Shown piece by piece: positions 3,557 through 18,169 of a DNA stretch of 39,083 nt; the first letter of the stretch is position 1; each line of letters opens with the position of its first letter. Position numbers and translations under genes: made by a program. The notes below the pieces were generated by a model, which worked only from the letters and a program-made list of their open reading frames with translations, was not told the origin of the DNA and searched no databases. The stretch comes from a filamentous cyanobacterium Phorm 6 (GTDB taxonomy: Bacteria; Cyanobacteriota; Cyanobacteriia; Cyanobacteriales; Microcoleaceae). The stretch spans positions 1-39,083 of the forward strand of contig PVWI01000018.1 of assembly GCA_003003725.1 (NCBI GenBank), written 5' to 3'.

Positions 3557-3861
3557 TTGGGAATGGGGCATTGGGAATGGGGCATTGGGCATTGGTTATT
3601 AGTTAAGCTATCGCGCATTTAAATTGTATATTTAGAGCTGGCTCTCCCGCCCACCCCACTCATTGTTTGATTGTTTTTAAACCAATTTAAGTGCCCAATA
3701 ACTTATTGGTGATGGCCTACTAATGCCCGATGCCCTGTTTGCCCTGTTTGCCCGATGCCCGATGCGCTGTTTGCCCTGTTTGCCCCAACCCACATCCGGA
3801 ATCATGGCCAAGCTGTCGAAGAACGTACTCAGATACCTTCTAGCAAGACAACATAAACATC
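3557..3861. other. Repeat-filled spacer before the rodZ-like gene
   Basis: Contains a GGGAATGGGGCATT-type slippage repeat (about 3559-3595), the TA-flanked element at 3606-3703 and a run of CCCGATGC/CCCTGTTTG words (about 3724-3785). The open frames through this run encode repetitive Cys/Pro/Leu peptides and are not considered genes. Confidence 0.55.
3606..3703. mobile_element. Miniature inverted-repeat element with TA flanks (IS630/Tc1-mariner-like ends)
   Basis: The left end reads AAGCTATCGCGCATTTAAAT and the right end, on the opposite strand, AAGTTATTGGGCACTTAAAT. These are long imperfect terminal inverted repeats (about 16 of 20 matching). The 98-bp element is bordered by TA dinucleotides at 3604-3605 and 3704-3705, the target duplication typical of the IS630/Tc1-mariner superfamily. 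It has no coding capacity. The end pattern AAGCT...CATTTAAA is shared with the element at 16950-17036, although the cores differ. No undisturbed allele is available here, so the exact insertion is inferred. Confidence 0.6.
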
Positions 3862-15799: not shown

Positions 15800-16960
15800 C
15801 TAACATTCCTCCCGCCGACCCAAAAGCCAATAGGTCATCATTTCTCCTCTTCCCTTGACCTGGATCGTCCCCCTTGGTTCTAGTAAGTATTTATTCTGTA
15901 ATTTGAGATAAGTCGCATCGGAGACTTGAATGTATCCCGGTTTACCGTGGGATTCCATCCTTGAGGCGATATTCACCGCATCACCCCAGAGGTCATAGAT
16001 AAATTTCTTAATCCCAATGACTCCGGCAATTACAGGACCCGTATTAATCCCGATCCGAATTTGTAGAGATTCCCCAAAAATATACTCCACCTCTTGCATA
16101 TAGGCGCGCATATCCAACGCCATGTTGGCGATCGCTTCGCAATGATCCGGTCGAGAAACGGGTAAACCACCCACTACCATGTAGGCATCCCCAATGGTTT
16201 TAATTTTCTCTAAGCCATACTTTTCAGTGAGTTGATCGAAGGCCGAGAAAATTTGGTTCAAACCTGCTACCAATTGCATCGGCTCTATCCGTGTTGAAAT
16301 AATAGTAAAACCTACGATATCCGCAAACAAAATCGTGGCTTCTTCAAAATGTTCAGCAGGGGATTCATTAGTCCGCATGAGGCGATCGGCAATTTCTGCA
16401 GGTAAGATATTTAAAAGTAATTGTTCTGACCTTTCTTTTTCTTGGCGCAGTTCTCCAGTTCTTTGCTCAACTCTAACTTCCAACTCTTCATTTGCCAAAT
16501 GGATGGCATCTAGAGAATCCTTTAGTTGTCTGGTCATGCCATTAAAAACGTTGGCTAATTTGCCAAGTTCAACGATGGAACTAACCTCCACTTGTTGGTT
16601 GAGATTGCCCTTTGCGATCGCTTCCGAAGCCGTGGTGATCCGCTCCACAGGATGGATAATCCAGCGAGCGGTCAGGATACCCAACAAAATTGCCAAAATC
16701 AAAGTTGCTAAACAGAGCAGGATTGTAGTCTGAGTATTGGCATTAATCCGATCCATAAAGTCTGCTTCTGGAATAGTCACTACCACCAGCCAGTCAATAC
16801 CTTTACTATCTCGAAAAGGATCGACTTGGACGAAATAATTTTTACCATTGACGGCAAATTTCAATTGATGAGATGTTTGGATATTTTGAAAATTCTGAAA
16901 CTGCTCTAGCAAAGCTTTACTTGCTTTTTGGGTAATGGCATTGCTACTAAGCTGTTCCAC
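15800..16960 (-). pseudogene. C-terminal half of a split adenylate cyclase (sensor end, HAMP, class III cyclase)
   Basis: This 386-codon frame holds the end of the Cache-type sensor (to about residue 72), a membrane helix (79-103), HAMP domain (about 100-153), a coiled coil (155-180) and a complete class III cyclase domain (about 205-340). Metal aspartates D214 (LFADIVGFT) and D258, adenine-selecting K254 and D323 (YDLWGDAVN), and N330/R334 are all present, predicting cAMP synthesis. The frame opens with a GTG that lies inside the inserted element at 16950-17036. Without the insertion it would continue directly from the N-terminal half. The half might still be translated alone, but no ribosome site is visible and most of the sensor would be missing. 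Confidence 0.9.
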
Positions 16961-17036
16961 ATTTAAACTGCATTATTTGTGGTCTATACCCCATACTGTA
17001 AGGGGTTCAGGCAAGAAATTTAAATGACTAACAGCT
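16950..17036. mobile_element. 87-bp miniature inverted-repeat element (TA target duplication) inserted in the cyclase gene
   Basis: The left end reads AGCTGTTCCACATTTAAA and the right end, read on the other strand, AGCTGTTAGTCATTTAAA: terminal inverted repeats matching at 15 of 18 positions. It is bordered by TA at 16948-16949 and 17037-17038. Deleting the 87 bp and one TA (89 bp) fuses the two cyclase frames as N-V-V-N-S-S-N-A-I-T with no stop, which proves the insertion boundaries. The ends and TA duplication fit non-autonomous IS630/Tc1-mariner elements. No transposase for it lies in the window. The core has a small CCCC...GGGG fold. Confidence 0.9.
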
Positions 17037-17880
17037 TATTGACAACATTGAGTCGTTCAATTCGTTGTTCTGGCAGTTGGACAACCTTGTCTGGGTAATA
17101 TTGAAAGGGCTTTTCCCCTGTAGAGGTGGCAATCATTTCTCCAGAACGTTCCAGAATAAAACTTTGCCCAGTTTTACCGATTTTGAGTTGGCTTAAAAAA
17201 TCCCCAAACATTACCAGATTTAAGCTGGTCATCCACACACCTTGGATATCTCCAGTCTGGGTATATATGGGTTTGCTCGCCGCAATGTATAGGTATTTAC
17301 CTGTAATGTGAGGATACAGTTTTGCCCAAACAGCTTGCTTTTGCTGGACTGGAATTTTATAGTAGGGGCGGTTGCGGGGGTCAAAGTTAGGGTTCCCGGC
17401 GTTGATAATTTCTCGGCGTTCCCCTGAAGGACTGGTGGTATAGGTCGTCAAAGTGTGGTTATTTTCTACCTCCGAAGTACGGATGACGATCTCGCCATCA
17501 TCCTGCCGCTCACCAGCAAAAAACTCCTGATTGGGGGTAACAAAAGCTGCGGCAGCAATCAGGGGAAAGGCAGGGAGTTGTCCCCATAGAAACTTCTCTA
17601 CGTCTCTCCCATTATTAAGATTGATGCGGTTTTGGAGCAGGGCTGCATCATAGGTTTCAAAGGATTGAAAGGGAATAGCAACCAGATAAGTTAGATTTTG
17701 CTTGATGCGATCGCTAGTATCATTCCGCAACTGAGTAGCTACATCATTTACTGCTTTTTGACCGTTTCTATAGGAAAGATAACCAACAACAGCCACTGCT
17801 CCAACTGTTTGGACAACAAATGGAACAATTAGCAGTATTTGTAGGGGAATTTTTTTGAAAAGTCCAGGTGATAATGGCAT
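17020..17880 (-). pseudogene. N-terminal half of the split adenylate cyclase (Cache sensor)
   Basis: From ATG 17880 the frame encodes a cytoplasmic start, a membrane helix (LQILLIVPFVVQTVGAVAVV) and an extracytoplasmic double-Cache sensor with typical segments (PNFDPRNRPYYKIPVQQKQ, then AASKPIYTQTGDIQGVWM and GKTGQSFILERSGEMIATS). It ends RLNVVN followed by five codons from the inserted element and a stop. The sensor would have detected an outside signal and controlled the cyclase across the membrane. A TTG at 17922 would add 14 residues and has AGGG upstream, so the start is uncertain. The restored gene would encode 663 residues from ATG 17880. Confidence 0.88.
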
Positions 17881-18169
17881 CCTTAAGAAGCTTTGGCAAG
17901 TAATGTTGCCATTACGGGACAAAAAATAACCCTGAGCGATAGATCGAACTGTTGCTGCCTATTTTGTCATAGACGATCGGAAATGCTGAATTTTGATACA
18001 ATTTTTTACACTCAGCAAGAGCAACCCTTTGCTAAGGGTTGGAAATTAATATTTTTTCACCGTATAAGTAGATAGGCAGTGTAAAAAGCAACTATGTAAA
18101 CGATCGTCAAGTATTGAAATGCGCTAAGCGCGGCTGGGTTAGGATTGTTTGCATTAAGTAGAAATTAGC

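Follow-up and report, generated by a model that had tools for sequence, protein, structure and literature searches.

In the stretch of filamentous cyanobacterial DNA that we analyzed (the window, 39,083 nucleotides), two neighboring open frames on the minus strand encode a sensor and a nucleotide cyclase, and a short sequence with inverted repeats at its ends lies between them. The question is whether these frames are two genes or a single gene that a mobile element has split. We conclude that the 87-bp sequence is almost certainly a young, non-autonomous MITE of the IS630 type, which was inserted at a TA, probably by a transposase acting in trans, and thereby split a cyclase gene. The features involved are as follows.

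15800..16960, minus strand: downstream half of the split gene, with the end of the sensor part, a transmembrane stretch, HAMP and a class III nucleotide cyclase (frame and domain match)
16948..16949, no strand: left TA of the target-site duplication (sequence; TA on both sides in 10/10 complete copies; single TA in four relatives)
16950..17036, plus strand: 87-bp non-autonomous element (MITE), identical to nine other complete copies in its own genome
16950..16967, plus strand: left terminal inverted repeat, AGCTGTTCCACATTTAAA (sequence; IS630-type ends in congeners are similar)
17019..17036, minus strand: right terminal inverted repeat, AGCTGTTAGTCATTTAAA, matching the left repeat at 15/18 bases
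17037..17038, no strand: right TA of the target-site duplication (sequence; complete copies; single TA of the relatives)
17020..17922, minus strand: upstream half of the split gene, with the dCache_1 sensor part (frame and domain match)

The coordinates, the 87-bp length, the TA on both sides and the 15/18 match between the ends are read directly from the sequence and are as given in an initial annotation of this DNA. That annotation had also suggested looking for an uninterrupted allele in related strains, and such an allele was found in four relatives. We searched 39 genomes, including the one containing the window. Matches of some sort were obtained in 35 of them, many involving cyclase genes other than this one or the element itself. 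Both flanks of the site were matched, with 90-97% identity, in four genomes of the same genus (G021, G019, G002 and G005). In each of the four, the flanks overlap by exactly two bases, i.e., one TA, as was confirmed base by base. One continuous frame runs across the site in all of these genomes (671, 674, 674 and 661 codons in the four relatives, counted from a common ATG), and the two halves in the window align with it without internal gaps.

Viewed without its relatives, the region does look like two open frames a short distance apart, and could be taken for separate sensor and cyclase genes of one operon, divided by normal intergenic DNA. The continuous frame and the single TA in the four relatives contradict this reading, as do diverged paralogs in G019 and G016 (72-76% identical), in which just 14 bases separate the aligned pieces that flank the site, as judged by alignment only. 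We rejected it because the orthologs are continuous, and its probability is close to nil. Removal of 89 bp (87 bp and one TA) had been predicted to fuse the two frames, and it yields the reading frame of the four relatives, each of which has a single open frame. The junction proposed for the fused protein, N-V-V-N-S-S-N-A-I-T, was recovered in part; ...VVNSSNAIT... is present in G019 and G002, and a motif search did not match it in G021 or G005.

The products of the two halves are in agreement with the earlier assignment of a sensor half and a HAMP-cyclase half. A dCache_1 domain was detected upstream, and HAMP and Guanylate_cyc (PF00211, E = 8.4e-66) domains downstream; the transmembrane stretch of the downstream half was assigned by eye, and most of the solved structures matched by this half are cyclases of the adenylate or guanylate type. 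Three cyclase motifs, which we take to hold the catalytic residues, are identical in the window and in 4/4 relatives, so that on this assumption the catalytic residues are intact, as had been claimed. With its Guanylate_cyc domain and intact motifs, the interrupted gene is a predicted class III membrane adenylate cyclase.

The upstream half has an in-frame ATG at 17880, common to the relatives; its frame enters the element by 17 bp and meets a stop there. No stop was seen outside the element in either half. The 89 added bases shift the frame and introduce a stop, so that the dCache sensor half ends early as a truncated product and the transmembrane-HAMP-cyclase half is left without a start. 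The normal sensor-cyclase function of the gene has probably been lost. Codon differences from G005 (15 non-synonymous and 11 synonymous among 280 codons in the sensor half; 30 and 32, respectively, among 381 in the cyclase half) do not show decay, as is also expected for a young insertion.

It is conceivable that the function was altered and not lost. After the stop, the earliest codon in frame that could serve as a start is a GTG within the element, near its edge, and an in-frame ATG is located just ahead of the transmembrane-HAMP-cyclase part; restart at either codon might give a sensor-less membrane cyclase, for which the unchanged cyclase motifs would be suitable. However, by eye no Shine-Dalgarno-like sequence precedes the GTG, and a promoter-like site at 17045-17017 (minus strand), which straddles the element edge, is no more than expected by chance (one found, versus a mean of 0.7 in shuffles). 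We therefore consider a sensor-less cyclase unlikely. A promoter or terminator inside the element was rejected, as the candidates are at chance level.

The properties of the 87-bp sequence are those of a MITE. It is short, has no transposase gene, and carries terminal inverted repeats that match at 15/18 bases and are well conserved among 17 distinct copies. It is also dispersed. The initial annotation had pointed to the rest of the genome as a place to look for further copies, and the assembly (6.64 Mb in 526 contigs) contains ten complete copies, which are identical at 87/87 bases and are each located between TAs, as well as two copies that run into contig ends (77/91 and 58/91 bases matched, 100% identical). 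With 0 differences among the ten complete copies in 870 bases, the divergence of these copies from their common source is probably below about 0.3% by our own arithmetic. The insertion event itself appears to be recent.

Empty sites revealed the TA duplication not only at the window site, in four relatives, but also at 5/9 other sites examined. For these nine sites, flanks were searched in G005, G021, G019, G002 and G020; C26 and C502 were left out because they lie inside tnpB-like repeats, and C216 was searched with one flank only. Including the window site, precise empty counterparts were found for 6/10 examined sites. An empty site with one TA was present for C446 in G021 and G002, for C101 in G021, for C377 in G005, for C194 in G020, G019, G005 and G002 (and, by match coordinates, in G021), and for C81 in G005, G019, G020 and G002; in G021, the two flanks of C81 are separated by 187 bp. 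In three of these five (C446, C101 and C377), the site is inside a frame that is open in the relative. A PIN domain is encoded by the C101 gene. The C446 gene appears PIN-like and the C377 gene filamentous haemagglutinin-like, both by eye only, and a family search with pieces of these two genes gave no match. No empty site was found in the searched genomes for the other four of the ten sites: C504 and C412 had a clear counterpart for the left flank alone; C131 has repeat-rich flanks, and its sole pairing, in G020, overlapped by 133 bases and not by 2; and for C216 only one flank exists.

The element is not confined to this genome. Among 29 genomes of the genus, including that of the window, 18 had a match, and in 14 the match extended over at least 83/91 bases; in G005, G014, G021 and G041 only an end was matched (26-28 bases). 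G020 has six copies with 97-100% identity, one of them identical to the 87-bp element. This genome is evidently Lyngbya sp. CCAP 1446/10, since the element and the 30 bases to each side of it agree between loci L172 and L082. Full-length copies in G008, G012, G043, G001 and G017 are 82-90% identical, and the 90% copy of G012 (evidently Oscillatoria nigro-viridis PCC 7112, in which the match has identical coordinates) is on the conjugative plasmid pOSC7112.02. No full copy was found in G021, G019, G002 or G005, i.e., in the carriers of the uninterrupted cyclase gene, and a phage collection gave no match. From part of the loci we recovered 18 distinct copies. The 17 copies of 87 bp could be aligned without gaps, with conservation highest at the two ends; the remaining copy, L170 of Lyngbya sp. 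CCAP 1446/10, was omitted. It is a single case of 85 bp; the two arms of the small inner stem are each one base shorter, which preserves the stem.

A TA target is a mark of the IS630 (Tc1/mariner-like) group, and TA is the target of the 87-bp element. The second link to this group is in the ends. Counted from the TA, the left end of the element matches the best IS630-type ends in congeners at 24-26 of the first 28 bases. In G020, locus L113 is an insertion sequence of 1192 bp, counting both TAs, with a transposase of 370 aa, and in G012 locus L112 is one of 1189 bp; both are bounded by element-type ends and TAs, and their transposases match NF033545 and PF13358. The IS ends nearest to the left end of the element agree at 24/28 bases in G020 and at 24-25/28 in G012, where copies L141 and L163 reach 25/28 and other IS ends fewer; G012 also contains L119, with the same ends, and L126, with similar ends and internal stops. 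In G021, transposases that are about 60% identical have ends that match only at 19-20/28. The first 28 bases are matched at 93% in 29 places of G014, many of them adjoining contig ends, and these places also encode the transposase C-terminus. A high-copy IS630-type element is seen in G014 (e.g., L095 and L107), and it seems to fragment that assembly, as its ends often adjoin contig ends.

The insertion sequences of G012 and G020 thus share with the 87-bp element the ends (TAAGCTGTT...CATNTAAA, with few mismatches), the TA flanks and the genus, but they are about 1190 bp long, encode a 370-aa transposase and have an interior in which no resemblance was seen by eye. Since, in addition, the right end of the element matches the IS ends at no more than 19/28 bases, the element cannot simply be one of these insertion sequences that has lost its interior.

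Matches to the transposase occurred in 23/29 genus genomes, many of them weak. In the own genome there was one match (E = 1.7e-4), and a closely related transposase was not found in the assembly. Seven DDE_3 loci of this genome were considered as the partner and rejected, as none has a pair of element-type ends; a single poor end match (6/20 mismatched) was seen at each of L077 and L079, and L080 and L081 are on the same contig, whose end could hide an element end. As the assembly is fragmented, the absence of a transposase is not proven. Ends in common with an IS630-family transposase gene (NF033545 proteins) were thus found in congeners only, and the family that is the likely partner was recognized there. 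The initial annotation had suggested a search for an IS630 transposase that shares these ends; one is accordingly present in congeners and was not found in the own genome. The disruption by a recent IS630-type MITE that it proposed is supported by the empty alleles, the sister copies and the congener transposases taken together.

In the proposed mechanism, an IS630-family transposase would act in trans on the ends of the 87-bp MITE, which would insert into the cyclase gene at a TA with duplication of this TA. Judged by the similarity of the ends, a transposase of the IS630 subgroup described above may have made the insertion. The initial annotation had also considered a reversible switch. In such a switch, precise excision in part of the population would restore the cyclase. 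Both halves have stayed open, with unchanged cyclase motifs, and the genus does contain IS630 transposases bounded by ends of this type. However, a young insertion would leave the halves just as intact, and the required transposase was not found in this genome; the switch is thus unsupported, and we regard it as very improbable.

The insertion could have been part of a hit-and-run burst, in which the element came in with, or was mobilized by, a transposase that was present briefly, e.g., on a conjugative plasmid, and reached at least 12 sites before this transposase was lost. Such a burst would fit the twelve sites without a base difference in the parts read, the failure to find a matching transposase in the assembly, the identical copy in G020 together with the lack of a full copy in the four genomes with uninterrupted orthologs, and the 90% copy on the conjugative plasmid of Oscillatoria nigro-viridis PCC 7112. 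We offer it as a tentative scenario, with more doubt than confidence.

We also considered whether a function of its own maintains the element, as a structured RNA or as a regulatory repeat. Compared with shuffled sequences, the two strands fold more stably (z = -2.8 and -2.6), but inverted ends tend to give this result. In the 17 distinct copies, pairing was 91.8% versus 91.4% in column shuffles, the inner stem was paired in 84.7% of cells, and no stem pair was altered on both sides, i.e., there were no compensatory changes. Rfam gave no match in window positions 16800-17200 up to E = 1. Lacking an Rfam match and covariation support, a retained RNA or regulatory repeat was rejected as exceedingly improbable. 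With up to three mismatches, the end pattern has four matches in the window (the two ends of the element, with 0 mismatches, and two weak ones elsewhere), whereas the shuffled window gave a mean of 0.26 and a maximum of 2.

MITEs that split genes in cyanobacteria are already published, and the present case is of that kind. The report on Anabaena sp. strain 90 describes 147 complete or partial MITEs, 15 of the 147 in disrupted ORFs, with no obvious similarity to the IS ends of that genome (PMC3542288). They are likewise short, multi-copy and bounded by terminal inverted repeats, and the host is also a filamentous cyanobacterium; the genus is different, however, and the likeness is one of general description (PMC3542288). 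In contrast to strain 90, IS630 elements with matching ends were found here, in congeners. The 87-bp element was not named in the literature searched, as judged by titles and the beginnings of abstracts.

The underlying biology is ordinary, and the locus illustrates cleanly a type of mobile DNA that is already known. It is nevertheless an unusually complete natural case, in that the element, its exact target, the empty allele, identical sister copies and a likely autonomous family could all be obtained from sequence. The copies are identical, yet a matching transposase was not found in the same genome, which raises the question of how a MITE multiplies where its own transposase is not seen. 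For annotation, the locus is a warning that two neighboring genes here are one broken gene.

Several additional observations were made. In the sensor half (17020-17922), non-synonymous codons exceed synonymous ones in comparison with G019 (51 vs 14) and G002 (52 vs 16), among 280 codons; the corresponding counts for the cyclase half are 32 vs 26 and 36 vs 26, among 383. The sensing part is perhaps evolving fast. In the own genome, the C412 copy (L010) lies 11 bp past the end of a 474-codon frame that is glutamine synthetase-like by eye, and could affect the 3' end of this message. The copies at L016 (C26) and L017 (C502) are within tnpB-like genes, i.e., a MITE inside another mobile element; this assignment is based on a TNB domain for C26 and was made by eye for C502, which is cut by a contig end.

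The own genome also contains a large group of longer MITEs, e.g., L028, L030, L038, L040 and L054, which among the pairs listed are 99-130 bp long including both TAs. They resemble the 87-bp element in their ends and TA flanks and have different interiors, often with GC-rich inner palindromes, and those listed differ among themselves. The end pattern, with up to three mismatches, has 175 matches in this genome, a count that includes the 87-bp copies, versus 11 for the reversed control. In the window, a second, degraded element with ends of this kind (2 and 3 mismatches to the pattern) is located at 3604-3705, spans 102 bp including both ends, and probably represents an old member of this group of longer MITEs.
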